Part shown: positions 2,768 through 21,662 of the stretch, one piece after another
Layout of the letters: each line of letters starts with the position of its first letter
Position numbering within the stretch: position 1 is the stretch's first letter
Source of the DNA: a virus
Virus record (IMG/VR): IMGVR_UViG_3300002835_000558
Coordinates: 1 to 35,760 of that record
Reading direction: 5' to 3' (one strand)
Length of the DNA: 35,760 bases
Notes under the pieces: generated by a model
Told to the model about the DNA's origin: nothing
Databases searched by the model: none
The model's input: only the letters and a program-made list of their open reading frames with translations
Translations under genes and position numbers: made by a program

Positions 2768-2777
2768 ATTAATTTAC

Positions 2778-5042: not shown

Positions 5043-5072
5043 CTTTTTTATGATAAATACATTAAAACGAAG

Positions 5073-5080: not shown

Positions 5081-5092
5081 TGAAAAAGTTAT

Positions 5093-5923
5093 ATGATAAA
5101 TTTTAATACAGAGTACTATAGTAATAATTATTACTTCTTTTTGAAAGAGAGAGCGGACAAAATCTCCTTATATTATTCTATTGCGGATACTTTAACTGAA
5201 TCTCGAAAGAATGATGAGAGAATTGACTTCGATAAAAAAGATTCTAAAAAAGTTAAAAATATTGTTGGAAATGTTTTAAAATCTAAAACAAAAGTTTCCA
5301 AAGACGCATTAACCAAAAAGTTAAAAAGTATTAAACCTAAAAAAGAAATTGATGAATTAGTTGATTCTGATGGAACAATGTTAAGTTCAAAAATACCATT
5401 TCTTAATCAAACTTTAACACCACACAAAACTACTGACCAAACTGTTGCTATGGCAAGAATTACGAATGACCCGGTAACAAGAGGTTATAGAGTTTATTAT
5501 GGTGAAAGTGAAGAAGGTTCTGATGAAGTTATTAATGAGGTTGATTATTCTGAAGCATTTGGGTATGAAGAAACCAAAGATATGGATTTTAAAGATACGG
5601 TTAAAACACTTAAAGAAATGGGTGTTGAGAATGCGATTGAAAGAGCGAAACAATTTGGTAAATTACCAAAACAAAAAAGAGAAGATGGTGAATTAAAACA
5701 AAGATTATCTGAAAAAGATAGTATTGAAGAACAACAAAGAAAAAAAATGATTAAAATGGTTGAGGATATGTTAACCAAAAAATCATCAAATAATTCTGAT
5801 GTAGTAAAAGATAAAGGAATAAGTAAAATATTATTAAAAAATATTCAATCAATTAAAAAAATTGCTGATAAAGAAGGTATCAGTATCAATATGTTAATCA
5901 AAGCGTTAAAATCTAATGAATAA
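5093..5923 (+). CDS. Hypothetical protein, charged and helical
   Basis: 276 residues, not recognised. It is rich in Lys, Glu and Asp. The middle part (about 88-160) looks more ordered (SSKIPFLNQTLTPHKTTDQ, then DPVTRGYRVYYGESEEG); the C-terminal 110 residues are strongly helical with coiled-coil character and end in a small helical module (KKIADKEGISINMLIKALK). It is the first gene of a five-gene plus-strand unit preceded by the TATTTATA motif and closed by the terminator at 7981. Its end overlaps the next gene by 8 bases, so translation is probably coupled. The company of genes with capsid-targeting-like motifs hints at a virion or assembly role, but nothing in the protein itself proves it. 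Confidence 0.75.
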   Translation: MINFNTEYYSNNYYFFLKERADKISLYYSIADTLTESRKNDERIDFDKKDSKKVKNIVGNVLKSKTKVSKDALTKKLKSIKPKKEIDELVDSDGTMLSSKIPFLNQTLTPHKTTDQTVAMARITNDPVTRGYRVYYGESEEGSDEVINEVDYSEAFGYEETKDMDFKDTVKTLKEMGVENAIERAKQFGKLPKQKREDGELKQRLSEKDSIEEQQRKKMIKMVEDMLTKKSSNNSDVVKDKGISKILLKNIQSIKKIADKEGISINMLIKALKSNE

Positions 5924-6386
5924 AGATTTATATGGAAATACCGTTCAATTACCTGAAGATGTTGTAGAATATTTACAACAATGCTTTGATTCTGCAAACA
6001 CAGATGATTCAACCATTGAAGGATTTAAAAGAAATCAAGAATTAAGAGATAGTCGTGAAACCACTTATCAACAATTAAAACGAATGAAAAATTGGTTTGA
6101 TAATTTTAATGGTCTTGAAAATGATTTACCTTTTATTTTGAATGGTGGACACTATGTAAAAAATTGGGTTAACGACACATTAGGTGGAATGAGAAATAAT
6201 GTATATATGGGTAAGAAATCAAAATCTGAAGTTTTACCAAATCAATTTATACAAACTCACACTAAAGATAATTTAAATACAATGAATAGACAAAGTAAAA
6301 GTCATAGTTCAACCACCGGTAATATTAACAAAGATATCACAGAAAGTTTAAAAAGAATAAACGAATTAATAAAAAAAATAATTTAA
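5916..6386 (+). CDS. Hypothetical protein, helical
   Basis: 156 residues, not recognised. The N-terminal two-thirds is predicted helical with conserved-looking aromatic positions (RMKNWFDNFNG, LNGGHYVKNWVNDTLGGMR). The C-terminal third is polar and low-complexity before a short final helix (ESLKRINELIKKII). The start overlaps the end of the previous gene by 8 bases, and the next gene starts 1 nt after its stop, so it belongs to the same transcript. Confidence 0.75.
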   Translation: MNKDLYGNTVQLPEDVVEYLQQCFDSANTDDSTIEGFKRNQELRDSRETTYQQLKRMKNWFDNFNGLENDLPFILNGGHYVKNWVNDTLGGMRNNVYMGKKSKSEVLPNQFIQTHTKDNLNTMNRQSKSHSSTTGNINKDITESLKRINELIKKII

Positions 6387-6387
6387 T

Positions 6388-6681
6388 ATGGCAAATTTAG
6401 AACCTTTAGATTTCGCACAACCCGAAAATGAATTATCAGCAATTGCGGATATGCAAAGAAAAATGTTATTCCCAAAGAATGACTTTAAAATCACAAATCA
6501 ATACTCAGCCGTTAACCCTGACGCTTTAGCCGATGGTGATGAGCAAGGTAAAGGTACTGGTGGATTTTTAGATGTTTATAATCAAGGTGCGGGGGCAATA
6601 CAAGACATTATGGAAAGAAAATCTGAAATAGTTGTTAATAAATACAAAGAAGTAAAACCATACACAACACCAAGTGCATAA
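6388..6681 (+). CDS. Small hypothetical protein
   Basis: 97 residues, acidic and polar, not recognised. It contains a Gly/Asp-rich stretch (DGDEQGKGTGGFLDVYNQGAG) in the middle and no membrane segment or signal peptide. The last base of its stop codon is shared with the ATG of the next gene, a tight arrangement that supports its being real and translated. Confidence 0.7.
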   Translation: MANLEPLDFAQPENELSAIADMQRKMLFPKNDFKITNQYSAVNPDALADGDEQGKGTGGFLDVYNQGAGAIQDIMERKSEIVVNKYKEVKPYTTPSA

Positions 6682-7361
6682 TGAAACTTTACAACACATT
6701 TAAATCACTTATTTTAGAAATAGCGTCTGTTGACTCTATAGTCGACGCTATAAAAAAACGAGATAAGATTATAATTTACTATGATGGGGATGAACCAGGT
6801 GGACGTGGATTACGTTTAATTGAACCGGTTTGTTTTGGTTATTCAAAAGCTGATAATCCTGTTGTAAGAGCGTGGGACTCTCAAGGAGCTTCTCATACCG
6901 CGTATTTAGGAGAACAACCTTTACCGGGATGGAGACTTTTTAGAGCTGACAAAATATTCTCTTTTAAACCAACGGGTGAAACATTTAACGAACCAAAACC
7001 AAACTACAATCCAAATGGTGATAAAAGTATGAATCGTGTTATTATTAATGCCGATTTTTCTGAAGTCACACCACAACAAGCACCTGAACCAACTACACCA
7101 GAAACTGAAGTTGAAGTTAATGATGTAATTGATGATGTAATTATCACCACAGTTAATGATATGATTAACAATATCATTGAAAAAGATGGTGCCGATTCAT
7201 TAGAAGGTGTTGATTTATCTAAAGCCGCAGAATCATATAAAAGAATATATTCCGGTATTGAAGATAAGATTCGTAGAAATTTATCCAATCAAGAGAAAAA
7301 TGATTTAAGACCAAAAGTTTCAGAACTAATACAACAATCTCAAAGTTTAATTAAAAAATAA
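6681..7361 (+). CDS. WYL-like domain protein with T4 internal-protein-like N-terminus
   Basis: 226 residues. Residues about 17-97 look like a WYL/Sm-like SH3-fold domain: an N-terminal helix (DSIVDAIKKRDKIIIYYDG), then strands with LIEPVCFGYSK, VVRAWDSQG, PGWRLFRADKIFSF. WYL domains bind ligands or nucleic acid in regulators; here there is no attached HTH. The first residues, MKLYNTFKSLILEIAS, resemble the capsid-targeting N-terminus of T4 internal proteins (recalled as MKTYQEFIAEA) and include an I-L-E cleavage-type site at 11-13. The middle is a disordered acidic/Pro linker; the C-terminus is helical. An injected or head-packaged WYL protein is the inference. The domain call is moderate; the packaging idea is weaker. 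Confidence 0.6.
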   Translation: MKLYNTFKSLILEIASVDSIVDAIKKRDKIIIYYDGDEPGGRGLRLIEPVCFGYSKADNPVVRAWDSQGASHTAYLGEQPLPGWRLFRADKIFSFKPTGETFNEPKPNYNPNGDKSMNRVIINADFSEVTPQQAPEPTTPETEVEVNDVIDDVIITTVNDMINNIIEKDGADSLEGVDLSKAAESYKRIYSGIEDKIRRNLSNQEKNDLRPKVSELIQQSQSLIKK

Positions 7362-7362
7362 T

Positions 7363-7959
7363 ATGACAAACGAAAATGATTTAATTCAAAAACTTATGAT
7401 TTCCAAACAAATCATGGAAAAACATAATCAAACCCCAAGAGGTGGTCTACCATCTATAGATACGTATGGTACACCTGAAGTAGCAACATACAATGCTCCT
7501 CCGGCAACTTATAACTTACCTCAAGATATGTTACAAGAAGCCTCTGTACCGGTACAAACAGTTAGCCAACCAATGACTCAAGATAGAGTTATGGCTTCAA
7601 AATTACCGGATGAGATTAAACGATTAATGATTGAACACCCAATAGCTCAACCGGCAGGTATGGGTGGACCTACTCTATCCAATGATTTAATTGATAAGGC
7701 GGCAAGATTAATGAATGCAGATGCCAGAGGTAATCAAGTAAGCCAACCAAAACAAAGAGTTCAAGAACAATCTCAACCTCAATCTAACTTTAATAACAAA
7801 CAATTAAGAGATATGTTAAAAGAAGTTGTAGAAGAAGTATTACTAGAAAATGGGATTTTAGCTGAATCAACACAAAAATCAAATAACGAACTATTTTCTT
7901 TTAAAGTAGGAAAGCATATATTTGAGGGTAAGGTTACTAAGATTAAAAAAATATCTTAA
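7363..7959 (+). CDS. Hypothetical protein with shared helical motif
   Basis: 198 residues, not recognised as a family. A low-complexity Pro/Gln/Thr-rich N-terminal half contains short helices (LPDEIKRLMIEHPI, LSNDLIDKAARLM). Residues 147-164 form an amphipathic helix (KQLRDMLKEVVEEVLLEN) that resembles motifs in the core protein and two other proteins of this window. The last 25 residues (ELFSFKVGKHIFEGKVTKI) look like a small beta module. It is the last gene of the operon, followed 21 nt later by a strong terminator. A virion-assembly role is possible but inferred only from the motif and context. Confidence 0.7.
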   Translation: MTNENDLIQKLMISKQIMEKHNQTPRGGLPSIDTYGTPEVATYNAPPATYNLPQDMLQEASVPVQTVSQPMTQDRVMASKLPDEIKRLMIEHPIAQPAGMGGPTLSNDLIDKAARLMNADARGNQVSQPKQRVQEQSQPQSNFNNKQLRDMLKEVVEEVLLENGILAESTQKSNNELFSFKVGKHIFEGKVTKIKKIS

Positions 7960-7980
7960 ACTTTATTTACTCTAAAAACT

Positions 7981-8007
7981 AAACCCTCAAGGAAACTTGG
8001 GGGTTTT
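7981..8007 (+). terminator. Rho-independent terminator
   Basis: AAACCCTCAAG pairs with CTTGGGGGTTT around a GAAA tetraloop, with one G-T wobble, followed by a T run. It ends the 5093-7959 operon and separates it from the glycan cluster. Confidence 0.9.
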
Positions 8008-8070
8008 TTATTTCTTAATAGTTGATATTATAATACTCTTTAATTATACTTTCTGTGATAATATTAAACT

Positions 8071-9291
8071 ATGAAAGAAAAAATTAATGTTTTAGTTCTC
8101 CCATCAGACAAAACCGGTGTTGGGAAATTCAGGTCTATTGACCCTCACGTATTTTTACAAAATCTATATCCTGACGATTTTCACGTTGAGATTGATTATG
8201 AACCAAAAATAAACGATATCAAATATTGGGATAAATACCAAATTATCCACGTACACCGAAACATCGGCAGTCATTACGACCAAACACCATCAATCATTAA
8301 GTATTTAAAGTCGATTGGTAAAGTTGTTATTATTGATATTGATGATTATTGGTTACCTACTGTTGACCACCCAATCCACAGTATTATTGTACAAAACAAA
8401 ATTCACGAAAAAATTGTAGCAAATTTAAAAGAAGCTGATTGGGTAACAACAACAACGGATATATTTGCAAATGAAATTCGTAAACTAAATAAGAATGTGT
8501 TGGTGTTACCAAATGCAATCGACCCTAAAGAACCTCAATTTAATCAAGTGACACCACCATCAGATAAAATTAGAATTGGTTGGTTAGGAGGTTCATCTCA
8601 CTTACACGATTTAGGTTTATTAGACGCGTTTGTTCAAAAGAATCAAGACATCAACGATAAATTACAATATGTAATTTGTGGGTTCGATACAAGAGGTTCT
8701 GTAACTGAAATTAATCCAACAACCGGAGAACAAAAGAAAAGAGATATTTTACCTCACGAAACAGTGTGGGTTAATTATGAGGGAATTTTCACAAATAATT
8801 ATAAAACGTTAGACGAAAATTATGTTAAATTTTTAAAGGAATTTAAAGACGAAAACTATATTTCAGATAAAGAATTACCTTACGTTAGAGTTTGGACAAA
8901 ACCTGTTAACTCTTACGCCATGAATTATTCAAAATTTGATATATCTTTAGCACCAATTAAAAACCACATTTTTAATAGAATGAAATCTCAATTAAAAGTA
9001 ATTGAAGCAGGATTTTATAAAAAAGCATTAATTGCTTCAGAGATTGGACCATACACCATAGATTTGGTTCATTGTTTAAAAAATGGTGAGTTTAACGATA
9101 ATGGTAATGCAATTTTAATACCTGAATCAAGAAACCATAGTGATTGGTCAAAATCAATTAAAAAATTAGTTCAAAACCCTGAAATGATAACCGAATTAGG
9201 TGAGAGATTATATAACACCGTAAAAGACAAATATGACCTTAATAAGGTTACAGTTACAAGAGCGGAATTTTATAAAAGTTTAATTAAATAA
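8071..9291 (+). CDS. Glycosyltransferase, GT4-like (GT-B fold)
   Basis: 406 residues. The N-terminal half has the Rossmann-like strands and VHRNIG / IIDIDDYW segments seen in phage and bacterial GT-B enzymes. The middle carries VLPNAIDP followed by RIGWLGGSSHLHDLGLL, the usual junction into the nucleotide-sugar-binding C-terminal domain. The later KSQLKVIEAGFYKKALIASEIGPY matches the E-x7-E-type donor-binding region of family 4 enzymes. It presumably transfers a sugar from an NDP-sugar; the acceptor is unknown. It opens the glycan cluster, 64 nt after the terminator, and the next gene starts 2 nt after its stop. No clear promoter was identified in the 8008-8070 gap. Confidence 0.8.
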   Translation: MKEKINVLVLPSDKTGVGKFRSIDPHVFLQNLYPDDFHVEIDYEPKINDIKYWDKYQIIHVHRNIGSHYDQTPSIIKYLKSIGKVVIIDIDDYWLPTVDHPIHSIIVQNKIHEKIVANLKEADWVTTTTDIFANEIRKLNKNVLVLPNAIDPKEPQFNQVTPPSDKIRIGWLGGSSHLHDLGLLDAFVQKNQDINDKLQYVICGFDTRGSVTEINPTTGEQKKRDILPHETVWVNYEGIFTNNYKTLDENYVKFLKEFKDENYISDKELPYVRVWTKPVNSYAMNYSKFDISLAPIKNHIFNRMKSQLKVIEAGFYKKALIASEIGPYTIDLVHCLKNGEFNDNGNAILIPESRNHSDWSKSIKKLVQNPEMITELGERLYNTVKDKYDLNKVTVTRAEFYKSLIK

Positions 9292-9293
9292 AA

Positions 9294-9749
9294 ATGAATA
9301 CAAAAAAAACAATCGGTTTTACCGCAGGTAATTTTGACTTACTTCATCCGGGATATATCTATACATTTGAAGAAGCTAAACGTCATTGTGATTATTTTAT
9401 GGTTTTTTTACAAAGAGACCCATCTGAAACTAGATTCACAAAATATAAACCTGTCGTTCCTTTATATGAACGATATAAAACATTAATGTCAATTAAATAT
9501 GTTGATGAAGTGGTCACATATCAAACTGAAGAAGATTTGATTCAATTAATGGAATTTTACAAACCTGACGTTAGAATTTTAGGCGATGATTATATTGGAA
9601 AAAGATTTACCGGAGACCATTTACCTATTAAAGTAATTTATACAACAAGGTCTCACAATTGGTCAACAACTAAAATTAAAGATTTAATTACAAGACAAAC
9701 AATCATACAAAATCCGGATATTATTAAAAATTTAGAATCAAATGATTAA
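9294..9749 (+). CDS. Cytidylyltransferase-like nucleotidyltransferase
   Basis: 151 residues, the usual size for the TagD/RfaE-C type single-domain nucleotidyltransferases, which activate sugar or polyol phosphates with CTP or ATP. The first strand and loop (GFTAGNFDLLHPGYIYTFEEAK) is diagnostic, and the C-terminal SHNWSTTKIKDLI matches the family STTKI signature. One deviation: the catalytic HxGH motif reads H18-P19-G20-Y21, with Tyr in place of the second His. This may lower activity or change specificity. It is embedded among glycosyltransferases, consistent with making an activated precursor. It overlaps the exonuclease gene by 8 bases. Confidence 0.8.
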   Translation: MNTKKTIGFTAGNFDLLHPGYIYTFEEAKRHCDYFMVFLQRDPSETRFTKYKPVVPLYERYKTLMSIKYVDEVVTYQTEEDLIQLMEFYKPDVRILGDDYIGKRFTGDHLPIKVIYTTRSHNWSTTKIKDLITRQTIIQNPDIIKNLESND

Positions 9750-10452
9750 AACACCATTAACTAAAATATTATTTTTAGATATTGAAACAGTTGGAATTGA
9801 AAAAGATTACGACACTTGTTTAGAAAAAAGACCTGAATTGGCAAAACAATTTGACAAATATTATGATTGGTTTTTAAAACGTTTCCCTGAAGACAAGGAA
9901 ATTGAATCAGACCAAAAGAATAAAGTATTTTCAACAAGAACCGCATTAGTTCCTGAATTTGCAAAAATTGTTTGTATGAGTGTCGCCTTTGTAATGGAAA
10001 ATGGCGAGATTAAAAAACAAACGTTTTCAGGGGATGACGAAAAAGTGTTACTAAAAGAATGTCAAAATTTATTAGAACGTTGTGGAAAATTAGATTTTTT
10101 CCTATGTGGTCATAATTTAAAAAACTTTGATATTCCAATGACCGCCAAAAGAATGATAATCAATGGATTATTACCCCCATCGATTCTACCATCTTATGAT
10201 ACAAAACCGTGGGAAATAAAAGCAATTGATACCAGAGAAATTTGGCAATACGGAGCATACACCGCAATTGGTTCATTAGATTTAATGTGTACATCAATGG
10301 AAGTTCCTTCACCAAAAGAAGGTGATGTTACCGGAGATAAAGTACACGACGCATATTGGAATAAAAATATGTTAGAAGAGATATCAGCATACTGTGAACG
10401 TGATGTACTAGTATTGATTGATTTAATAAAAAAATTAAAAAATTTAGAATAA
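9742..10452 (+). CDS. 3'-5' exonuclease, PolB-exonuclease related (DnaQ-like fold)
   Basis: 236 residues. Exo I is LFLDIET (D13, E15); Exo II is the segment CGHNLKNFDIPMTAKR; Exo III is YCERDVLVLIDLI with the catalytic Asp. The four acidic residues of a DEDD exonuclease are therefore present. The architecture matches stand-alone predicted 3'-5' exonucleases related to the proofreading domain of family B polymerases, without a polymerase domain. A role in DNA repair, recombination or nucleotide recycling is likely. It overlaps its neighbour upstream by 8 bases, and its stop shares a base with the dUTPase start, so it is translationally coupled to nucleotide metabolism despite lying inside a glycan cluster. 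Confidence 0.85.
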   Translation: MIKTPLTKILFLDIETVGIEKDYDTCLEKRPELAKQFDKYYDWFLKRFPEDKEIESDQKNKVFSTRTALVPEFAKIVCMSVAFVMENGEIKKQTFSGDDEKVLLKECQNLLERCGKLDFFLCGHNLKNFDIPMTAKRMIINGLLPPSILPSYDTKPWEIKAIDTREIWQYGAYTAIGSLDLMCTSMEVPSPKEGDVTGDKVHDAYWNKNMLEEISAYCERDVLVLIDLIKKLKNLE

Positions 10453-11048
10453 TGTTAAACGAAGATTTAGATTTCTTAAAAAACAAAGCCGAGGAATTAA
10501 AAAAATTGGCAAATATTGATTTAGATGATTTAAGTTATGAGGACATAATGAGTGAGTTTGGTTTGGATTTAAAGCAACTTGAAGACGATATGATGAATTC
10601 AAGAACTAGGCTTCCATTAGGGTTTGTAAAACTTCATCCTGACGCAGTAACACCAAAATATAATTATGATAGTGATTCAGGGTTTGACCTACACTCTATT
10701 GAAGAGGTTACAATTGAACCTTTTGGTAGAGCATTAGTCCCAAGTGGATTATCATTTGATATTAAAGACGGATATGAACTTCAAGTAAGAACTAAAAGTG
10801 GATTAGCAATCAATCAAGGACTTATGGTTTTAAACTCACCGGGGACTGTTGATAATGGTTATACAGGTGAAGTTAAAGGTATTATATTTAACACCAACCA
10901 TCACCCCGTAACTATCCATAAAGGAATGAAATTTGGCCAAGCGGTATTATGTCCCGTTGTAAATGGGGGTTGGGTTCATTTGGACCAAAGAAAAGAAGTA
11001 ATTGATAAAGAAAGAGGTAATAACGGATTTGGGTCAACAGGAATTTAA
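10452..11048 (+). CDS. dut: dUTP diphosphatase (dUTPase)
   Basis: 198 residues. It hydrolyses dUTP to dUMP and pyrophosphate, keeping uracil out of phage DNA and feeding dTMP synthesis. All five trimeric-dUTPase motifs are visible: SDSGFDL (74-80), RTKSGLA (113-119), GTVDNGYTGE (131-140, with the catalytic Asp), KGMKFGQAVLCPV (157-169), and the Gly-rich C-terminal arm RGNNGFGSTG (188-197). The first 54 residues are an acidic helical extension absent from the usual 140-150-residue enzyme; its role is unknown. The start is shared with the end of the exonuclease gene. Confidence 0.93.
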   Translation: MLNEDLDFLKNKAEELKKLANIDLDDLSYEDIMSEFGLDLKQLEDDMMNSRTRLPLGFVKLHPDAVTPKYNYDSDSGFDLHSIEEVTIEPFGRALVPSGLSFDIKDGYELQVRTKSGLAINQGLMVLNSPGTVDNGYTGEVKGIIFNTNHHPVTIHKGMKFGQAVLCPVVNGGWVHLDQRKEVIDKERGNNGFGSTGI

Positions 11049-11049
11049 A

Positions 11050-11772
11050 ATGGAAATAAATAATGTAAATGTAGGTATTTGTTTAATAATTAAAAACGAA
11101 ACCCAATATTTGGATGAATGGTTAGAACATTATCGTAAATTAGGTGTTGATAAATTTTTTATTTATGATAACAATTCTTCAACACCAATTAAAATTGACG
11201 ATAATGATGTTGAAGTTATTTTATGGGATAATGAGTTATTTGGTTCTCAAAATAACGCATATTTAGATTGTTGTCAAAAAAATCTATCATTTGATTTTAT
11301 AGGATTTTTTGATACTGATGAGTTTTATTTTTCAAAAAGTATGAACATTAAGTCAGACATTAATCATTTTAAATCTTTATATGGTGATTTTGATGGATTT
11401 GCAATCTATTGGAGATTATATGGTAAACAATCTCCTTATTTCACAGAAAGACAATCTATTGAAATGTATACCCAATATTATGAAGATGGTCATATAAAAA
11501 GTTTATTAACCCCTAAAAAAGTTGTAAGTTTTGGTCAACCCCATTTTGCTAGTTTACTTAACGGTAAATATATTGATGAATTAGGTAGAATTGTTTTTTC
11601 CCCAATAGGAGAACATACTAGTGATTATGTGTGGATAAAACATATTTGGGCTAGAAGTGAAGAAGAATTCAAAGAAAAATTAATAAGAGGTGATGTTAAT
11701 TGGAGAAAACAAATAAACACAGATTTTAACGAATTTTACAATTATAATGATAGATGTGTTTTAAATGACTAA
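11050..11772 (+). CDS. Glycosyltransferase, GT92/GT2-like (GT-A fold)
   Basis: 240 residues. The opening CLIIKNETQYLDEWLEHYRK followed by KFFIYDNNSS is the hallmark of family 92-like and related GT-A transferases. FFDTDEF (D88-x-D90) is the metal-binding DxD. The start at 11050, 1 nt after the dUTPase stop, is chosen because an upstream in-frame ATG at 11002 would lie entirely within the dUTPase gene and precede the first conserved strand. Donor and acceptor are unknown. It is part of the glycan cluster. Confidence 0.8.
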   Translation: MEINNVNVGICLIIKNETQYLDEWLEHYRKLGVDKFFIYDNNSSTPIKIDDNDVEVILWDNELFGSQNNAYLDCCQKNLSFDFIGFFDTDEFYFSKSMNIKSDINHFKSLYGDFDGFAIYWRLYGKQSPYFTERQSIEMYTQYYEDGHIKSLLTPKKVVSFGQPHFASLLNGKYIDELGRIVFSPIGEHTSDYVWIKHIWARSEEEFKEKLIRGDVNWRKQINTDFNEFYNYNDRCVLND

Positions 11773-11784
11773 CAGATAAAATTT

Positions 11785-13293
11785 ATGATAACAATAATAT
11801 ATTCAACACATAAAGATGAACAATTTAATAACAAATTTAAACAACATTTGTTACAAACTGTTGGTCTAAAAGATGTTCAAATTTTGGAATATAAAAACAA
11901 TAATGAATTTAGTTTGAGTGAGATTTATAATAAAGGTATATCTCATTCAAATTTTGATATTGTGGTTTGTTGCCATAATGATATAAAATTAGAAAATGGG
12001 TGGGGTAAAAAACTTTTAAAAGATTACTCTGATAATCCTGAATATAGTATTATTGGAAAAGCAGGTACATCATATTTTCCTGAATCAGGGGTGTTTTGGG
12101 AAAAAATGCAACAAACTATGGTGGGACAAGTTTACCATCAACCTGATAAAGATAAGTGGTTAAGTAAATATTCCCCAAAATTACCAATAATTGTTCCCGT
12201 AGTTTCAATAGACGGTTTATTTTTATCATTTAATAAGACAAAAATAAAACATACGTTTGATGAAAGTATTGGTAGATTTCACTTTTATGACCATTTATTT
12301 TGTTTACCAAATTATTTAGACGGAGTTAAGATTGGTGTCACATCATCTTTTGAAATTATTCATCAATCAATCGGAAGACCAAATCAGGAGTTTTACGAAA
12401 CCAAAGAAAAATTTGTGGAGAAATGGAAACACGTTTTACCATTAGATTTAAAACCTGAAAAAATTTACATTCCGGAAATAAAAGAAAAACCAATTAAAAA
12501 TATTGGTAAAGTAGCCGTTATCATCCCAACCAAAGGAAATATTGAAATGTTGAAAGAATGTGTTGATTCATTTTACATTCATTGTAACTCTGAATTATTT
12601 GACATTTTCATTGCTGATACCGGTTCAACAGATGACGAAAAAGAAACATTAAAAAGTAATATAAAAGATTATAATAACATAAAATTAATTGAATATGATT
12701 ATTATAATTTTGCAAAAATTAATAATGATGTTGTTAAAAATCACGTAACTGATGAATACGAATTTTTATTATTCTGTAATAATGATATTAAATTATTGAA
12801 TAATGTAATTTATGGAATGTTAAACATTTTTAAAACAACACCTAAAGTTGGTACGATTGGATGTAGATTACATTTTGAAGACAATACCATCCAACATGAC
12901 GGTGTCATTTGTTTATTTGATAGTAAACAAAATTTATTAATATCTCATCACGGATTAAATAGTTATTACAATTTTTCAAATAATAACAGAAAAATATTAG
13001 GTTCTACGGCAGCATTACTTATCATTAAAAAAGAGGTATTTATTAAATGTGGTTATTTTAATGAAAATTACACCACTTGTTTTGAAGATGTTGAATTGAA
13101 TTTAAAGTGTTTAATGTTGGGTTTAGATAACTATTGTAATAGTAATTTAGTTTCTTATCATTATGAAAGTCAAACAAGAAATAACGATGATGAAAAATCT
13201 AAAAAACAATTTAATGATTATAACAATATATTAAAACCATTTGTTATTAACAATTATGATAAGTTAAAAACTCATATACAAATAATAAAATAA
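11785..13293 (+). CDS. Two-domain glycosyltransferase (tandem GT2)
   Basis: 502 residues containing two GT-A domains. Domain 1 (about 1-225) has IIYSTHK, then VCCHNDIKLENGW (H64-N65-D66 in the DxD position). Domain 2 (about 243-500) has VAVIIPTKGN, IADTGSTDD, LLFCNNDIKLL and a later CFEDVELNLKCLMLG, typical of family 2. Twin-domain enzymes often add two sugars in alternation or in sequence to a growing chain. The canonical DxD is replaced by HND and NND in the two domains, which is common in divergent GT2 proteins. It lies between another transferase and the sugar aminotransferase. Confidence 0.8.
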   Translation: MITIIYSTHKDEQFNNKFKQHLLQTVGLKDVQILEYKNNNEFSLSEIYNKGISHSNFDIVVCCHNDIKLENGWGKKLLKDYSDNPEYSIIGKAGTSYFPESGVFWEKMQQTMVGQVYHQPDKDKWLSKYSPKLPIIVPVVSIDGLFLSFNKTKIKHTFDESIGRFHFYDHLFCLPNYLDGVKIGVTSSFEIIHQSIGRPNQEFYETKEKFVEKWKHVLPLDLKPEKIYIPEIKEKPIKNIGKVAVIIPTKGNIEMLKECVDSFYIHCNSELFDIFIADTGSTDDEKETLKSNIKDYNNIKLIEYDYYNFAKINNDVVKNHVTDEYEFLLFCNNDIKLLNNVIYGMLNIFKTTPKVGTIGCRLHFEDNTIQHDGVICLFDSKQNLLISHHGLNSYYNFSNNNRKILGSTAALLIIKKEVFIKCGYFNENYTTCFEDVELNLKCLMLGLDNYCNSNLVSYHYESQTRNNDDEKSKKQFNDYNNILKPFVINNYDKLKTHIQIIK

Positions 13294-13314
13294 ACAAAAA
13301 AAAAATAATTAAAA

Positions 13315-14463
13315 ATGAAAAGAGAAACAATACAACTGTTCAAAGTTTTTATGTCTGAAAACGCAGCACCTGAAGTTGCCAAAGTATTAAACAGTGGATA
13401 TATTGGTCAAGGTGAAAAGGTTGAACAATTTGAATCTAAATTACAAGATTTCTTTATGAAAGATTACATTGTAACATTAAACTCCGGTACTAGCGGACTT
13501 CATTTAGCTTTAGATTTATTAAAAAAATCTTCAGGTAAATGGCCAGGATTAGAAGATGGTGATGAGGTATTAGCAACATCATTAACGTGTACAGCGTCAA
13601 ATTTTCCAATTTTAGCAAACAATTTAAATATTAAATGGGTAGATGTTGACCCAACAACATTAAATATGGATTTAGATGACTTGTCAAGAAAAATAAGTCC
13701 AAAAACCAAAGCCATTATGTTAGTACACTGGGGTGGTTATCCAAATGATTTAGATAGAATTAAAGAAATTCAAAATAAATGTTTTGAGTTATATGGGTTT
13801 AAACCGGCGGTTATTGAAGATGGTGCTCACTCATTTGGTTCTAAATATAAAGGCAAATATATTGGTAACCATGGTAATATGACTATGTATAGTTTACAAG
13901 CTATTAAACATATCACATCCATTGATGGTGGTTTATTATTATTACCTCACCAAGAATTATATGATAGAGCGAAATTATTAAGATGGTACGGTATCGACAG
14001 AAATTCAAACAGAAAAGATTTTAGATGTGAGGCGGATATTCAAGAGTGGGGTTTTAAATTTCATATGAATGATGTTTGTGCAACAGTTGGTATGGAAAAT
14101 TTAAAACACGCAGAGGAAATTGTTGGTAGACATCAATCTAACGCAAAATTTTATGATGAAAATCTACAAAATATTCCGGGATTAACAACATTAACTAGAC
14201 ATGAGGGTCATGAATCAGCATTTTGGATTTATAGTATGTTAGTTGAAAATAGAGACGGTTTTTATAAACACATGAAAGATTGTGGTATTGTAGTTTCTCA
14301 AGTTCACGAAAGAAATGATAAACACACTTGTGTTTCTGATTATAAATCATCATTACCTACTTTAGATAGAATTATTGGGAAAGTTGTTTCAATACCTGTT
14401 GGATGGTGGGTTACAGATGAAGATAGACAATACATTGTTGATTGTATTAAAAAAGGTTGGTAA
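13315..14463 (+). CDS. DegT/DnrJ/EryC1-family sugar aminotransferase
   Basis: 382 residues, normal length. PLP-dependent enzymes of this family aminate keto-sugars bound to a nucleotide to give amino-sugars for glycans. Visible features: phosphate-binding loop NSGTSGLHLAL (56-66), LATSLTCTASNFPI, VDVDPTTLNMD, the cofactor Asp in VIEDGAHSFGS (D169), and the Schiff-base Lys in SLQAIKHI (K198). It ends with IGKVVSIPVGWWVT. It implies a glycan containing an amino-sugar, and the N-acetyltransferase downstream could then acylate it; that link is inference. Confidence 0.9.
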   Translation: MKRETIQLFKVFMSENAAPEVAKVLNSGYIGQGEKVEQFESKLQDFFMKDYIVTLNSGTSGLHLALDLLKKSSGKWPGLEDGDEVLATSLTCTASNFPILANNLNIKWVDVDPTTLNMDLDDLSRKISPKTKAIMLVHWGGYPNDLDRIKEIQNKCFELYGFKPAVIEDGAHSFGSKYKGKYIGNHGNMTMYSLQAIKHITSIDGGLLLLPHQELYDRAKLLRWYGIDRNSNRKDFRCEADIQEWGFKFHMNDVCATVGMENLKHAEEIVGRHQSNAKFYDENLQNIPGLTTLTRHEGHESAFWIYSMLVENRDGFYKHMKDCGIVVSQVHERNDKHTCVSDYKSSLPTLDRIIGKVVSIPVGWWVTDEDRQYIVDCIKKGW

Positions 14464-14464
14464 T

Positions 14465-15412
14465 ATGATTAATTCAGAACAAAGAAATCTTTTGAATGAA
14501 ATGATTTTGGATTTAAATAACTCCAAAATTTCAGAATATAAACCTAGTAGTGTGTGTTGGGAAAGTTTATCAAACCAATTTGAGATATTTTTCAATGAAA
14601 TTGGTATTAATAATGTTCAAAACCAAATAAGGTATAATAATTTATTTTCTTTTATACATGATATTCCAGGATTGTCATTTCAGTCTGCTGTATGGAGTTA
14701 CTATAGTTATTTGAAATTAAAAGATAAGTACAATATATTAACTCTAACAACCGCTTTACCATCAGGTAATTCTAATTTAGATTATAACCCATCTGAAAAA
14801 ATAGATGGTAGACCTAAAGATAGAGAAAATAAATTAATTAATTGGGATTATTTAATTTCTTTAGATACGATTATGACTATCTTGGAATGTAATCCTGATT
14901 TATTAAACAAACCTGTAACTATTTGTGAAGTAGGTGCTGGATGGGGTCGAGTAGGTTATTATTTAACACAAATTAATAATAAAATATCTTATAACATATT
15001 TGATATCCCGCACACTTTATTAATATCGTCTGATTATTTGTATAATAATGTTAAACACATTAAAGTATTTAAGTATTTAGAAACTAAACAAAATAATTTT
15101 ACAACCAAAAAATTACTGTTAAAAAATCCGGGTATAAATTTTTATACACCAAATAAGTTAGAAGATTTTGAAGATAAGTGTTTTGATTTATTTATTAACA
15201 TAGCGTCATTTCAAGAAATGAATATTGAACAAGTGACAAATTATTATAAAAAAATTAATCAGTTGTCAGATAATTTTTATAATCAACAAAGATATAAAGA
15301 TTTAGATATGGAATATAATAAATATCCATTGTACGATAACTGGAAAAAGGTGTTTGATAAAGACATAAACTTTCACCCATTATGGTTTGAGCAATATTTT
15401 AAAATAAGTTAA
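14465..15412 (+). CDS. Putative sugar O-methyltransferase
   Basis: 315 residues. The SAM-binding motif I is EVGAGWGR (155-162), followed by the acidic post-I region YNIFDIPHTLLISSDYL, matching the putative sugar O-methyltransferases found in surface-polysaccharide clusters. The N-terminal region (KPSSVCWESLSNQFEIFF, then a long helical segment) also fits that family. The start at 14465, 1 nt after the aminotransferase stop, is preferred over an upstream ATG at 14375 that lies within the aminotransferase gene. It probably methylates a hydroxyl of a sugar in the glycan made by this cluster. Confidence 0.75.
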   Translation: MINSEQRNLLNEMILDLNNSKISEYKPSSVCWESLSNQFEIFFNEIGINNVQNQIRYNNLFSFIHDIPGLSFQSAVWSYYSYLKLKDKYNILTLTTALPSGNSNLDYNPSEKIDGRPKDRENKLINWDYLISLDTIMTILECNPDLLNKPVTICEVGAGWGRVGYYLTQINNKISYNIFDIPHTLLISSDYLYNNVKHIKVFKYLETKQNNFTTKKLLLKNPGINFYTPNKLEDFEDKCFDLFINIASFQEMNIEQVTNYYKKINQLSDNFYNQQRYKDLDMEYNKYPLYDNWKKVFDKDINFHPLWFEQYFKIS

Positions 15413-15416
15413 AAAA

Positions 15417-16118
15417 ATGTTTGATTACATTGTTTGTTTTTATTTTGGAGAAAGAAGAGTTAGAACAACCAATTCATTATTATTATCTGATAGATATTTT
15501 TTTGTTAAAAAACATTTAGATTTTATAAAAAATAATGAAACAGTTTTAAACGACATTAATAACGTAATTTTAGTTATTAATAATTCAAATGATGACGATT
15601 TAAAATCCGTTACAAATATTAAAAATGAATATCCCTTCTCAGATAAAATTATTATCATAGGAAGGGATAATTCAAATTATTCTTATGGTGGGTGGAATGA
15701 ATCATTAATTCATCAAATAAATTTAAATACCCCATCGTTACACGCATTTCTTTGTGAAGATGATTACATACCTTGTAATGATAATTTTCATAAAAAATTT
15801 ATAGAATTTTTTAATTCCGATGTTATATATGTTTGTCAATTATTTATGAATAATCATGCGGCAATTTCAAATGGTTTCATAACTTATAACATAATAAAAG
15901 ATTATTATAATAATACCAAAGAATTATTTGTGCTCACTAATAGTTATGATTATAGAAGTGCCGAAATTAACCAAGTTAACTTTTTAAATAATTTTAAAAA
16001 TTTAAAGTGTGTTGACATCAGTGAAAAATATTGTTCAAAATTTTTAGATTTCAATAATAGTATTGTTGTTTATGGGAATAAAACCGGTGAAGAATTAATA
16101 AAACCAATTTTAGAATAA
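15417..16118 (+). CDS. Probable glycosyltransferase, GT-A-like
   Basis: 233 residues. The N-terminus has an alternating strand-helix pattern (YIVCFYFGERR, NNVILVINNSNDD, DKIIIIGRDNSNYSYGGWNES) and then FLCEDDYIPC, where E114-D115-D116 sits where the DxD of GT-A enzymes is expected. The overall family is not certain. Neighbours are a methyltransferase upstream and an acetyltransferase whose ATG overlaps its stop, so a sugar-transfer role fits. Confidence 0.6.
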   Translation: MFDYIVCFYFGERRVRTTNSLLLSDRYFFVKKHLDFIKNNETVLNDINNVILVINNSNDDDLKSVTNIKNEYPFSDKIIIIGRDNSNYSYGGWNESLIHQINLNTPSLHAFLCEDDYIPCNDNFHKKFIEFFNSDVIYVCQLFMNNHAAISNGFITYNIIKDYYNNTKELFVLTNSYDYRSAEINQVNFLNNFKNLKCVDISEKYCSKFLDFNNSIVVYGNKTGEELIKPILE

Positions 16119-16600
16119 TGATAAAATTTAAAAAATTAGAAGAAGACGACTTACAATTCTTAAACGATGTAAGAAACGAATATTGCGAAGAATTTTTACA
16201 TGATAGTAGACAATTCACATTAGAAGAAACCAAACAATGGTTCCATAAATATAATCCGGACTTTTACATTATTACGTTAGACGATGAAAGAATTGGGTAT
16301 TTTAGACTATCCAACTATTCTGATGTGAATAAAAATATTTACATTGGTGCCGACATTTCACCAAAATTTAAAGGTAAAGGTTTGGGTAAATTATCTTATG
16401 AAAAATTTATACCTTTTTTGTTTGAAACCTATAATTTGAATAAAATAAGTTTAGAAGTATTGTCTAATAACATAATTGCTTTAAATTTATATAATAAACT
16501 TGGGTTTGTAACCGAAGGTGTTAAACGTCAAGAAGTTTATAAAAATAATCAATGGGTTGATTCCATTATTATGTCAATATTAAAAAATGAATATGAATAA
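16118..16600 (+). CDS. GNAT-family N-acetyltransferase (RimJ/RimL-like)
   Basis: 160 residues, full-length for the family. Motif A, the acetyl-CoA pyrophosphate-binding loop, is SPKFKGKGLGKLSYEKFIPF; motif B is LNKISLEVLSNNIIALNLYNKLGF; the end is VTEGVKRQEVYKNN. The RimJ/RimL-like subgroup includes amino-sugar acetyltransferases of surface glycan pathways. With a sugar aminotransferase in the same cluster, an amino-sugar substrate is plausible but not shown. Its end overlaps the start of the first twin glycosyltransferase. Confidence 0.85.
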   Translation: MIKFKKLEEDDLQFLNDVRNEYCEEFLHDSRQFTLEETKQWFHKYNPDFYIITLDDERIGYFRLSNYSDVNKNIYIGADISPKFKGKGLGKLSYEKFIPFLFETYNLNKISLEVLSNNIIALNLYNKLGFVTEGVKRQEVYKNNQWVDSIIMSILKNEYE

Positions 16601-17324
16601 TTTAAAATTTGAACTTATTATAGCTTACTATAAAAGACCTAAAATTGTTTTAAATGCTTTAGAATCTATATTAAAATCCACATATGACAATTGGCATCTA
16701 ACATTTGTTGATGATTCCGGTGACGATTCTTTTAAAGAGACCTTTTTAAATTATGGTTTTGATTCTTCTAAAATAACATATTCCCCAATATTAATGTCTG
16801 ATGACGAAAAAAATAATATAGGAGGTTCAATATTTGGTAAGTACGTTAACGACGCTATCCAAAATACCGATGCCGATATTATTATATTAATATGTGATGA
16901 TGACGCAATATTTCCTGATTATATGGAAAATCTTAATAAATTTTATACTAAAAATCCTGATAAAATGTGGGGGTATTGTCATGTTGAATTTTATAACCCT
17001 GAAATTGAACATTATACCCAATCAACCAAAACTAACGGAGACTCATCTTTAGGATTTTCAGATTTAAATGCTTTAACAATCCCAATAATGCCAGTTAATA
17101 AAATTGATAGTTCTCAAATTTCTTTTAGAAAAACCGCATTTACTGATGGTAATGTTTGGTATCCACATCCGTATACCGTAAGTTTAGATGCCCACGTTTT
17201 TCGTAATATGTTTAAGGTTTGGGGATTATGTGAGTTCACAAATTGTTATGGACAATATAAAGGTTGGTTCGCAAATCAATTAGGGGTTAGAGTTAGAAAA
17301 AAAATAGGTACATTTATAAAATAA
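16593..17324 (+). CDS. Glycosyltransferase family 2, first tandem copy
   Basis: 243 residues. GT-A features: FELIIAYYKRP at the first strand, LTFVDDSGDDS, and D102-D103-D104 in ILICDDDAIF as the metal-binding site. The start at 16593 is chosen over the ATG at 16587 because the downstream paralogue begins at the equivalent codon with the same residues, MNNLKFE. Residues 1-130 are nearly identical to that copy and so is the last stretch NCYGQYKGWFANQLGVR, while about 135-215 diverge. In GT2 enzymes the C-terminal part shapes the acceptor site, so the two copies may act on different acceptors. Confidence 0.85.
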   Translation: MNNLKFELIIAYYKRPKIVLNALESILKSTYDNWHLTFVDDSGDDSFKETFLNYGFDSSKITYSPILMSDDEKNNIGGSIFGKYVNDAIQNTDADIIILICDDDAIFPDYMENLNKFYTKNPDKMWGYCHVEFYNPEIEHYTQSTKTNGDSSLGFSDLNALTIPIMPVNKIDSSQISFRKTAFTDGNVWYPHPYTVSLDAHVFRNMFKVWGLCEFTNCYGQYKGWFANQLGVRVRKKIGTFIK

Positions 17325-17336
17325 TAAAAAATAAAT

Positions 17337-18068
17337 ATGAATAATTTAAAATTTGAACTAATAATCGCTTATTATAAAAGACCCAAAATTGTCTTAAACG
17401 CGTTAGAATCTATATTAAAATCTACATATGATAATTGGCATTTAACATTCGTTGATGATTCCGGTGACGATTCTTTTAAAGAAACTTTTATAAACTACGG
17501 GTTTACACCTTCTAAAATAACATACTCACCAATATTAATGTCAGATGATGAGAAAATTAAAATAGGTGGGTCAATATTTGGAAAGTACGTTAACGACGCA
17601 ATACAAACCACAGATGCTGATATCATTATACTAATATGTGATGACGACGCATTGTTTCCGGATTGTATGGAAAACCTTAATAAATTTTATACCGAAAACC
17701 CTGATAAAATGTGGGGGTATTCTCATGTTAAATTCTTCAATCCCGAAAAACAACATTATTCAGAATCAACCGATGTACCAAGCGATAGAACATTTAACAC
17801 ATCAAATTTAAATGATTACACATCACCAATTCAACCATCGTGTAGAGTTGATAGTTCTCAAGTATCTTTTAGAAAAAACGCTTTTACACAAACAAATTTA
17901 TGGTACCCTTATCCACATACAAAAGATTTAGATAGAAATGTTTTTGAAAAATTATATAAAAAAATAGGACTATGTCATTTTACTAACTGCTACGGACAAT
18001 ATAAAGGTTGGTTTGCAAATCAATTAGGTGTTAGAGCACGAACAGGTAAAGGAGATTTTATTAACTAA
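17337..18068 (+). CDS. Glycosyltransferase family 2, second tandem copy
   Basis: 243 residues, paralogue of the gene ending 12 nt upstream. It carries the same catalytic-domain features (LTFVDDSGDDS, ILICDDDALF) and the same C-terminal NCYGQYKGWFANQLGVR. The middle section (about 135-215) shares only scattered residues with the first copy, such as the VDSSQ-SFRK stretch. The DNA of the first 390 bases differs mostly at synonymous positions, so purifying selection acts on the donor half after duplication. It is the last gene of the contiguous glycan cluster; PhoH follows 18 nt later. Confidence 0.85.
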   Translation: MNNLKFELIIAYYKRPKIVLNALESILKSTYDNWHLTFVDDSGDDSFKETFINYGFTPSKITYSPILMSDDEKIKIGGSIFGKYVNDAIQTTDADIIILICDDDALFPDCMENLNKFYTENPDKMWGYSHVKFFNPEKQHYSESTDVPSDRTFNTSNLNDYTSPIQPSCRVDSSQVSFRKNAFTQTNLWYPYPHTKDLDRNVFEKLYKKIGLCHFTNCYGQYKGWFANQLGVRARTGKGDFIN

Positions 18069-18086
18069 ACAACTAAAATAATTTAA

Positions 18087-18833
18087 ATGGCTACATACAG
18101 CAAATCAAAGAACGCTAAACCTACCCCTACTCCGGAAACTACAAGTAAACCGGTTAATAAGAAAGAATTAATTAACCAAATTATTAAAAGAAAAACTAAA
18201 GAAAAGTTTTTAACCAACAATCAAAAAAAATATTATGATACTTTAATTGACAGTGAAATCACTGTTTGTTCCGGACCTGCGGGTGTTGGTAAAAGTTATA
18301 TTACAATGAAAGCCGCGATTGACTTACTCGCTGACCCTGAAACACCATATGAAAAAATTATTATTGTTAGACCCGCTGTTGAAGCTGAAGAAAAATTAGG
18401 TTCACTACCAGGTAATGTTGAAGAAAAATTAGACCCATACATTTTCCCATCATATTATTTATTAAATAAAATTATTGGGAAAGAATCTAGAGAAAAATTA
18501 AAAGAAATCGATGTTATTGAAGTATTTGCCTTGGCATTTATGAGAGGTATGAACATTGATAATTCTATTTTAATTTTTGAAGAGGGTCAAAATGCCACCC
18601 CAAGTCAAATGAAATTACTTTTAACTAGAATTGGGTTTAACAGTAAATTCTTTATATCCGGTGATGTAGAACAATCAGACAAATATAAAAATAAAACTCA
18701 TAGTGGTTTATGGGACGCAATTGAAAAATTTAGAGATAGTGAATATATATCAATTTTTGAATTTAAAGATAAAAAAGATATCGTTAGAAATCCGTTGATT
18801 AGTAGAATATTAGACAAGTACGAAGAAAACTAA
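18087..18833 (+). CDS. phoH: PhoH-like ATPase
   Basis: 248 residues. Walker A GPAGVGKS (63-70), the VRPAVEAEEKLGSLPGN loop typical of PhoH, MRGMNIDNSILIFEEGQN as Walker B, and the sensor segment KFFISGDVEQSD identify it. PhoH proteins are P-loop NTPases, with helicase-like or RNA-linked roles proposed; they are very common in large phages. Walker B reads EEGQN rather than the usual DEAQN. A Lys/Thr/Pro-rich N-terminal extension of about 40 residues precedes the core. A terminator follows. Confidence 0.92.
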   Translation: MATYSKSKNAKPTPTPETTSKPVNKKELINQIIKRKTKEKFLTNNQKKYYDTLIDSEITVCSGPAGVGKSYITMKAAIDLLADPETPYEKIIIVRPAVEAEEKLGSLPGNVEEKLDPYIFPSYYLLNKIIGKESREKLKEIDVIEVFALAFMRGMNIDNSILIFEEGQNATPSQMKLLLTRIGFNSKFFISGDVEQSDKYKNKTHSGLWDAIEKFRDSEYISIFEFKDKKDIVRNPLISRILDKYEEN

Positions 18834-19792: not shown

Positions 19793-20854
19793 ATGACACA
19801 AGAACAAATTACAAAATTAGAACAGTCGATTCAAAACATGAAAGATAAAAAGTCAAGGATTTATCTTTTAGTTCAAGACACTAAAGGTAATGCAAAAGCT
19901 TCAGTCGCTTACATATACGAGTTAGGTATGGCATTATTAAAAAATGGATACAACCCAATTATCTTACACGAAACACCTGATTATACTGGAGTTGGTGAAT
20001 GGTTAGGTGAGGATTATATGACATTACCACATAAAACAATTGAAGGCCAAAATTTAGAAATTGCACCTGAAGATTTAATTGTTATCCCTGAATTATACGG
20101 GTTTGTGATGAGTCAAATTTCAAAATTACCTTGTGGTAAAATTGTATTGTCTCAAGCCCATGACCATATCTTGGAAACATTACAACCAGGCCAGACATGG
20201 TCACAATTAGGGTTTTATAAATGTATAACAACTTCTGAAGCTCAAAAAGAATATATCGAGAATATTATGAGAGGTATTTCGATAGATGTTTTAAAACCAT
20301 TTATTTCTGATAAATTTAAACCACATACTTTACCATCAAAACCTATTATTGCAATTCATGCTAGAGAACAAAGAGAAGCCCTTAACATGATTAAAAGTTT
20401 TTACATTAAATTTCCTCAATACAGATGGATAACTTTTAGAGACATGAGAGGACTATCTATTGATGAGTTTGCAAGTGCTATGAAAGATTGTTTCTTATCT
20501 GTTTGGATTGATGAAACAAGCTCTTATGGTACATTCCCATTGGAATCTATGAAATGTAAAATACCTGTAGTTGGTTTAGTACCAAATTTAGTTCCTGAAT
20601 GGATGAATGAAGACAATGGTGTTTGGGTTAACAATAAAATCCAAATGGTTGATTTTGTCGCGGACTTTTTACAAAATTGGTTGGAAGACAGTATTAATGA
20701 AAATTTAGAAACTGAAATTATTAAAACTGCAGAAAATTTAAGTACTAAAGAAGATTTTGAAAAAATTTCATTAAACTTATTTGAAGGATATCTAACTAAA
20801 AGATTGGAATCATTTGAAGAACAATTAAATAAACTACAAACAATAGAAGAATAA
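19793..20854 (+). CDS. Glycosyltransferase, GT-B-like
   Basis: 353 residues. IYLLVQDTKGNAKASVAYIYELGMALL with DLIVIPELYG form the N-terminal Rossmann domain. KPIIAIHAREQREALNMIKSF starts the second domain, and SSYGTFPLESMKCKIPVVGLVPNLVPEW is the donor-binding E-x-x-x-x-x-x-P-V stretch of GT-B enzymes. It lies outside the main glycan cluster, 30-odd kb-scale neighbours aside, directly before another glycosyltransferase with which it forms a pair (1-nt gap). Substrates are unknown. Confidence 0.75.
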   Translation: MTQEQITKLEQSIQNMKDKKSRIYLLVQDTKGNAKASVAYIYELGMALLKNGYNPIILHETPDYTGVGEWLGEDYMTLPHKTIEGQNLEIAPEDLIVIPELYGFVMSQISKLPCGKIVLSQAHDHILETLQPGQTWSQLGFYKCITTSEAQKEYIENIMRGISIDVLKPFISDKFKPHTLPSKPIIAIHAREQREALNMIKSFYIKFPQYRWITFRDMRGLSIDEFASAMKDCFLSVWIDETSSYGTFPLESMKCKIPVVGLVPNLVPEWMNEDNGVWVNNKIQMVDFVADFLQNWLEDSINENLETEIIKTAENLSTKEDFEKISLNLFEGYLTKRLESFEEQLNKLQTIEE

Positions 20855-20855
20855 T

Positions 20856-21662
20856 ATGGAAAATTACTTTGACGTATCAGTTATATTACCGATTAAATCG
20901 GCAACCGCACCATTTTTTGAAGATTACTTTAAGAAATGTATTGAATCATTAAATAATCAAAAATTAAAAATTAATGAATTAGTTATTGTTCACACAAATG
21001 AAATACCTTTAGTTGAACTTTTAAAAGATTACGATTTTGGTGACTTAAATGTAGTTAAATTAGAATGGGAAAAAGAACCTAATTACGCGGCACAAGTTAA
21101 TCACGGTGTTAGAAATTCAAAATCTGAATGGGTTTCATTATTTGAATTTGATGATGAATATTCTAACATATGGTTTAAGAATGTTGACATCTACTCAAAA
21201 GCATACCCTAATATGGATGCGTTTTTACCAATCGTTGTTGATACAGACCAACAAGGTAAATTTGCCGGGTTTACTAATGAAGCAACTTTCGCGGCAAACT
21301 TTACTCCGGAAATGGGTGTATTAACTCACGATACTTTATTAGATTATCAAAACTTCCAATCATCAGGAATGGTAATCAAAAAATCAAAATTTGTTGATTA
21401 TGGATTAATCAAACCTTCGTTTAAATTAACGTTTGGGTATGAATTATTTTTACGATTAACACATAATTCAATTAACATTATGTCTATCCCAAGAATTGGT
21501 TATAAACATACTAATTTAAGAGATGGGTCAATCTTTTGGAATTACAAAAATGGTAGAGATGTCTTAACTCCGGAAGAAGTTAAATTTTGGATTGAGTCCG
21601 CAAAAAAAGAATATTTTTTCATTAATGACAGAGCGATAAAATTTGAATCTCAAGAAGTTTAA
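20856..21662 (+). CDS. Glycosyltransferase family 2
   Basis: 268 residues. VSVILPIKSATAPFFEDYFKKCIESL is the GT2 first strand and helix; NYAAQVNHGVRNSKSEWVSLFEFDDEY gives the F-D-D metal-binding region; the C-terminal part (SGMVIKKSKFVDYGLIKPS, FGYELFLRL) is the usual family 2 acceptor side with its catalytic acidic residue. It shares its final base with the start of the sigma factor gene, so the glycosyltransferase and the late regulator are translationally coupled. Confidence 0.82.
   Translation: MENYFDVSVILPIKSATAPFFEDYFKKCIESLNNQKLKINELVIVHTNEIPLVELLKDYDFGDLNVVKLEWEKEPNYAAQVNHGVRNSKSEWVSLFEFDDEYSNIWFKNVDIYSKAYPNMDAFLPIVVDTDQQGKFAGFTNEATFAANFTPEMGVLTHDTLLDYQNFQSSGMVIKKSKFVDYGLIKPSFKLTFGYELFLRLTHNSINIMSIPRIGYKHTNLRDGSIFWNYKNGRDVLTPEEVKFWIESAKKEYFFINDRAIKFESQEV

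Follow-up and report, generated by a model that had tools for sequence, protein, structure and literature searches.

Introduction

The moraphages, a freshwater lineage of jumbo T4-like phages, have four core groups of glycosyltransferases together with variable islands whose function was given as unknown (PMC12619734). Here we describe a glycan gene locus in a 35,760-base virus record (IMG/VR record IMGVR_UViG_3300002835_000558, positions 1 to 35,760; this whole stretch is called the window), in which genes for sugar modification and glycosyl transfer flank and fill a replaceable stretch between the dUTPase and PhoH genes. Like the window phage, the moraphages are large aquatic relatives of T4 that infect Bacteroidota (the probable host phylum of the window phage), and their core genes include those for the major capsid protein, dUTPase and PhoH; no glycan island was located or described in that work, and the likeness is one of shared traits only (PMC12619734).

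The nearest cultured phage, judged by its DegT sugar aminotransferase, is Flavobacterium phage vB_FspM_immuto (NC_055915), in which a glycan cluster at 49-60 kb, all of it soluble as here, contains glycosyltransferases, DegT, a methyltransferase and an epimerase. The DegT proteins of immuto (gp177) and the window are 55% identical and the capsid proteins about 40%, but the immuto cluster has another genome position and other flanks, and the rest of its sugar enzymes are only distantly similar to the window's. Immuto also carries deazaguanine genes of its own. Prochlorococcus phage P-SSM2 is also a T4-like phage with pathway-sized clusters of sugar (lipopolysaccharide, LPS) genes; it differs in its cyanobacterial host and in a cluster headed by nucleotide-sugar epimerases, and the portion of the P-SSM2 text available describes no replacement between near-identical phages. 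An earlier interpretation of the window (the sequence-only reading) had considered a pathway in a phage exceptional, but with P-SSM2 and immuto such clusters were already known in T4-like phages. Mimivirus makes 2-O-methyl-N-acetyl-viosamine on its virion fibrils with a 12-gene virion glycan cluster and, like the window, encodes a pyridoxal phosphate (PLP)-dependent aminotransferase, an N-acetyltransferase, a methyltransferase and glycosyltransferases (PMC10117803). However, it is a eukaryotic virus that uses a UDP-sugar and its own dehydratase, and the likeness is one of function rather than of demonstrated kinship.

A cassette is exchanged at gene borders within a conserved backbone

We read the region as a locus by which a jumbo T4-like phage infecting Bacteroidota diversifies its glycans: a swappable cassette would be combined with a fixed core, and the product would decorate virion proteins. 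We place the probability of this reading at roughly 60%. The borders and variability of the island and the conserved core enzymes were observed directly, by comparing the window with relatives of its exonuclease gene collected from IMG/VR; gene identities and solubility are likewise observations. In these relatives the backbone consists of structural-type genes, a glycosyltransferase (GTa), an optional nucleotidyltransferase, exonuclease, dUTPase, a variable stretch and PhoH, followed downstream by two small genes, two further glycosyltransferases (GTb and GT2c) and other genes. Because the same order was seen again in many related contigs, it is not a product of chance.

The stretch from dUTPase to PhoH (11049-18086 in the window) is a hypervariable island. 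Across 71 loci holding both borders, some of them duplicates of one contig, 32 distinct gene contents were found (the number to use), with lengths of 2.3-11.3 kb. A two-domain GT2 glycosyltransferase was present in all 32 contents, and the window DegT (at 70% identity or more) in 7. For pairs whose exonucleases share 90% identity or more, the Jaccard index computed on island gene families had a median of 0.10, and 63 of the 98 island protein families occurred in one island only. The family tally was led by GT2, GDP-mannose dehydratase/epimerase, methyltransferase, GNAT, DegT, GlcNAc 2-epimerase and UDP-sugar dehydrogenase.

Alignments by blastn broke at 11042, 11784, 13293 and 18063, each a few bases at most from a gene border. 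The best case was locus L091, where DNA identity with the window was 93.8% over 2370-11042 and 92.3% over 11784-13293 (the two-domain GT2), no match was found over 13294-18062, and identity of 91.3% resumed from 18063. In this near-identical phage (about 94% backbone DNA identity) the cassette has been replaced exactly at gene borders. In another relative (L010) the island was kept at about 90% identity but GT92 had been swapped for other genes, and in three loci (L057, L068, L070) the DegT part was inverted. The new findings are the exact borders, the swaps seen when near-identical phages are compared, a variable cassette framed by conserved core enzymes, a content that is soluble throughout, and the amino sugar predicted as the product. 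Hypervariability at gene borders, the main feature of the locus, cannot be seen from a single sequence.

The cassettes might alternatively be passing host-derived metabolic genes with no common virion function, kept by drift or as host-metabolism genes. The abundance of families confined to one island would fit such turnover, as would the movement of DegT between unrelated phages described below. However, every island is flanked or anchored by four glycosyltransferases, the recognised contents are nearly all sugar-active, and DegT is still 67-84% identical across unrelated phages, so that we give this explanation very little credence.

Gene content of the glycan block

The glycan genes named in the sequence-only reading at 8071-18068 proved to be real open reading frames at about those positions with family matches. 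The block encodes six glycosyltransferases, of which one has two domains and one has no family match, along with a nucleotidyltransferase, the aminotransferase DegT, an O-methyltransferase acting on sugars and an acetyltransferase of the GNAT type (Table 1). The block holds over that extent, but two more glycosyltransferases at 19793-21662 had been missed; with these, the whole region contains eight glycosyltransferase genes encoding nine domains. The exonuclease and dUTPase genes sit inside the block and had been read as embedded in the pathway; instead they belong to the conserved backbone, where all relatives have them beside GTa, and it is at the stop codon of dUTPase that the cassette begins. 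Their overlap is real (1 base; the nucleotidyltransferase and exonuclease genes overlap by 8 bases), but joint expression with DNA metabolism, which had been deduced from it, is a weak proposal, as the putative transcription unit begins with structural-type genes at 5093, behind a TATTTATA motif. The cytidylyltransferase-like enzyme that had been assigned to the pathway is a genuine gene (9294-9749), but it is an optional part of the backbone found in some relatives only, is similar to TagD/HldE-type enzymes (TIGR01518 and TIGR02199 matches fell under cut-off) and does not clearly belong to an amino-sugar route.

Table 1. Features of the glycan locus and its flanks in the window
Feature	Position	Strand	Evidence or comparison
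TATTTATA motif, putative phage promoter	5073-5080	+	20 bases upstream of first gene of + strand unit
GTa, backbone glycosyltransferase	8071-9291	+	phrog_7162, 7e-43; about 60-98% identical in all same-backbone relatives
Nucleotidyltransferase, TagD/HldE-C type, optional backbone insertion	9294-9749	+	PF01467 (CTP_transf_like), 8e-14
PolB-type 3'-5' exonuclease, conserved backbone gene	9742-10452	+	PF10108, phrog_25228, alignment
dUTPase, conserved backbone gene; stop is left island border	10452-11048	+	PF00692, 2.5e-20; blastn break 11042
GT92/GT2-type glycosyltransferase (island)	11050-11772	+	PF01697 and PF13704; absent or replaced in near-identical relatives
Two-domain GT2, sole island gene kept in all relatives	11785-13293	+	PF13712 and PF00535
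DegT sugar aminotransferase	13315-14463	+	PF01041, 1e-74
Sugar O-methyltransferase, NanM family	14465-15412	+	TIGR04371, 86 bits vs cut-off 44
GT-A glycosyltransferase by predicted fold, without family match	15417-16118	+	AlphaFold pLDDT 86; Foldseek to GT-A enzymes, E 3e-5
GNAT N-acetyltransferase, PseH-like	16118-16600	+	PF00583, 1e-14; TIGR03585 under cut-off
GT2, tandem paralogue 1	16587-17324	+	PF00535
GT2, tandem paralogue 2; end is right island border	17337-18068	+	PF00535; blastn break 18063
PhoH, conserved backbone gene, right anchor	18087-18833	+	PF02562, 5e-61
GTb, backbone GT-B glycosyltransferase by predicted fold, outside original block	19793-20854	+	AlphaFold pLDDT 87; Foldseek 8xsg, E 3e-13, TM 0.70
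GT2c, backbone GT2, outside original block	20856-21662	+	PF00535, 1e-8; 56-96% identical in relatives

For two genes the start differs from the mechanical open reading frame: the first ATG of GT92 (11050) is more likely than the beginning of the open frame at 11002, and the ATG at 14465, after the DegT stop, is the more likely start of the methyltransferase. The second domain of the two-domain GT2 is more diverged than the first, the predicted GT-A protein contains an invariant EDD motif, and GTb is conserved among relatives. The tandem GT2 paralogues (16587-18068) are almost the same in their N-terminal halves but differ in the C-terminal ones, a pattern that looks like the outcome of a recent duplication with new acceptor specificity. 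In several loci (L093, and also L094-L098 and L141) the dUTPase in the exonuclease-dUTPase region is present in two pieces or copies around a 294-aa open reading frame, which resembles an inserted element and may be a homing endonuclease.

The cassette is predicted to make an N-acetylated, O-methylated amino sugar

The window DegT belongs to the CalS13/AtmS13 clade of the DegT/DnrJ/EryC1/StrS family: the match is full-length and nearer than to other subfamilies, with 4zwv, 4xau and 4zas (CalS13) as the nearest solved proteins (1e-116 to 1e-109) and the next subfamily at 1e-38. These enzymes aminate C4 of 4-keto nucleotide sugars in calicheamicin and AT2433 biosynthesis; they differ from the window enzyme in serving actinobacterial antibiotic sugars. 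Genes for dTDP-glucose 4,6-dehydratase (RmlB) and a GNAT protein lie beside DegT in one cellular homologue (L168), and glucose-1-phosphate thymidylyltransferase (RmlA) and an RmlC-type epimerase in another (L178). Among 65 distinct viral loci, GNAT is the next gene 3' of DegT in 35 and no more than four genes away in 47. These features support the prediction that DegT is a dTDP-4-keto-6-deoxyhexose 4-aminotransferase. Since no 4,6-dehydratase scored over cut-off in the window phage's own 86-kb contig, itself a fragment, the keto sugar may be supplied by the host. The predicted product is an N-acetylated, O-methylated 4-amino-4,6-dideoxyhexose derived from host dTDP-4-keto-6-deoxyglucose, in agreement with the earlier view that the genes amount to a pathway for an amino sugar with methyl and N-acyl groups and include none for export.

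Two other routes were considered and rejected. For pseudaminic acid, the scores were 203.9 against an equivalog cut-off of 423.5 for PseC and 67.8 against 93.1 for PseH. For GDP-perosamine, perosamine synthetase structures matched the window DegT at about 1e-27, compared with 1e-116 for CalS13/AtmS13. GDP-mannose dehydratase was present in other islands and did not score over cut-off in the 86-kb contig.

More than 200 viral stretches encode a DegT relative; the 80 that were kept are 67-100% identical and lie mostly in unrelated phages. In a tree, the window DegT grouped with those of two loci with different backbones (L011 and L013), apart from other same-backbone DegTs, and two changes were needed, suggesting that DegT has moved between unrelated phages. 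Because homologues of the O-methyltransferase, GNAT and GT2 also adjoin DegT in L013, the four genes probably travelled together at least once. A contig labelled Woesearchaeota (L166, PBPJ01000021.1) has a DegT gene whose four upstream neighbours match in size those of the immuto cluster, and this archaeal metagenome-assembled contig is probably a misbinned phage.

Substrate, order of steps, product, acceptor and advantage are what we infer. An invariant inner glycan would be built by the four conserved glycosyltransferases (GTa, the two-domain GT2, GTb and GT2c), and the outer sugars would come from the replaceable cassette. Here, dTDP-4-keto-6-deoxyglucose would be drawn from the host rhamnose pathway and its keto group aminated by DegT, the new amine would be acetylated by the GNAT enzyme, and the NanM-type enzyme would O-methylate the sugar before or after transfer by GT92, the GT-A protein and the tandem GT2 enzymes. 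All steps would take place in the cytosol, with a virion protein as likely acceptor, and exchange of cassettes between phages by recombination at gene borders would place different glycans on near-identical phages. A more specific version, which we offer tentatively and think possible rather than probable, is a phage counterpart of bacterial serotype loci: one jumbo phage species would exist in many glycan types through exchange of whole cassettes at gene borders, with the attachment maintained by four core glycosyltransferases. In the window phage the sugar at the tip would then resemble N-acetyl-viosamine bearing an O-methyl group, convergent with that of the mimivirus fibril.

The enzymes are soluble and a virion protein is the favoured acceptor

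Only one of the 98 island protein families had a hydrophobic segment above threshold (a single one), and the other 97 had none; in the Escherichia coli K-12 O16 cluster, run with the same script as a control, the polymerase WbbH had 6 and the flippase RfbX had 9. Searches of eight long relatives (not certified complete) for priming transferase, flippase and membrane acyltransferase (PF02397, PF01943, PF01757) gave no match, while controls worked. The sequence-only reading was right that the block contains no flippase or polymerase. The island machinery thus appears cytosolic and, as the pathway comes without export genes, its product is probably attached in the cytoplasm. An O-antigen or capsule locus of the Wzx/Wzy type is unlikely, because membrane proteins are absent and flippase, polymerase and priming transferase were not found in the island or the long relatives.

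These results bear on the idea that the enzymes remodel the surface polysaccharide of the infected cell and so block superinfection or change recognition, a role that has been suggested for the P-SSM2 LPS clusters. That published precedent, the resemblance of island families to O-antigen enzymes and the use of lipid-linked sugars by many GT2 enzymes speak for it, but the absence of the three export and priming families from the long relatives, the solubility of nearly all island families and the location of the genes among structural-type genes on one strand make it unlikely in our view.

A glycan on phage DNA bases, acting against restriction and varied by cassette swaps, would also be compatible with an entirely cytosolic route. 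Virus-encoded DNA-modifying glycosyltransferases are known, and this was the first function considered for the moraphages (PMC12619734). However, the single thymidylate-synthase-family gene of the 318-kb relative contains the motif LPFNIASY, which we take to be the dUMP-specific Asn motif of canonical thymidylate synthase (ThyA). A TET/JBP search gave no match, although its control also gave no signal, and C5 DNA methylases were found in one of the eight long relatives. Given the thymidylate synthase motif and the restriction of C5 methylases to one relative, DNA appears the less likely acceptor, and we hold base glycosylation to be quite improbable. The relative in question (G006, the record of L100) has an array of seven C5 DNA methylase matches at 116.9-131.1 kb, and none were found in the seven others.

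The sequence-only reading had offered either protein or a DNA base as the recipient; its protein half is the one we favour, and specifically a virion protein, since the genes have structural-type neighbours and are preceded by a motif that the head genes share. Several points weigh against decoration of virion proteins by a dTDP-derived amino sugar. The absence of export genes is compatible with use of host Wzx/Wzy or lipid carriers, and the glycan could instead be attached to DNA or to a host protein. The DegT substrate is predicted from solved homologues and from gene neighbourhoods in a few cellular genomes, and other cellular DegT homologues have no dTDP-glucose-type neighbour genes. Both glycan and acceptor are deduced from gene content.

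If the glycan is on the particle, lake phages would diversify by glycan type independently of core genes, with effects on adsorption, recognition and the reading of strain diversity. The moraphage paper noted genomic islands of jumbo aquatic phages without a function for them; one island of this kind now has exact borders, contents and testable chemistry and, as immuto is a cultured relative with a homologous aminotransferase, the system can be tested now.

Source phage, host and promoter motifs

The window encodes PhoH and a T4-type Gp23 major capsid protein (PF07068, 1e-74; 32119-34035, - strand), the latter placing it among the T4-like myoviruses. Longer contigs, among them one with 86,333 bases (IMG/VR), contain the same or almost identical sequence, and a 318,164-base contig represents a sister phage whose exonuclease is 93% identical; the source is therefore probably a jumbo phage.

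The TATTTATA motif was found upstream of genes in 45 of 177 segments of the 318-kb and 86-kb contigs (L196-L217), against 2.1 expected; many genes have it some 10-30 bases upstream. Sites in the window include 5073, 22428, 26519, 28022, 30631, 35625 (-) and 1766 (-), that at 35625 being upstream of a head gene. Counted over the window by itself, the motif is no more frequent than in shuffled sequence (13 sites against 11.3); its weight comes from position and from enrichment in relatives. A second motif, TATCTTTG, occurred in 16 of the 177 segments, against 1.2 expected, with TTTG about 20 bases upstream. Bacteroidota promoters have the form TTTG, then TAnnTTTG. As TATCTTTG sites with the TTTG element match this form, the host is probably a member of the Bacteroidota, and TATTTATA is a putative phage-specific promoter beside the Bacteroidota-type TATCTTTG.

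Most structural-type neighbours in the window had no match in PHROG and Pfam scans and for this reason were left without names. Adjoining GT2c, a conserved protein at 21662-22411 without family match resembles a sigma factor by eye. About half of the 638-aa major capsid protein does not align with known Gp23 relatives (the best alignments cover 50-57%), and this unaligned half appears to be a large insertion.

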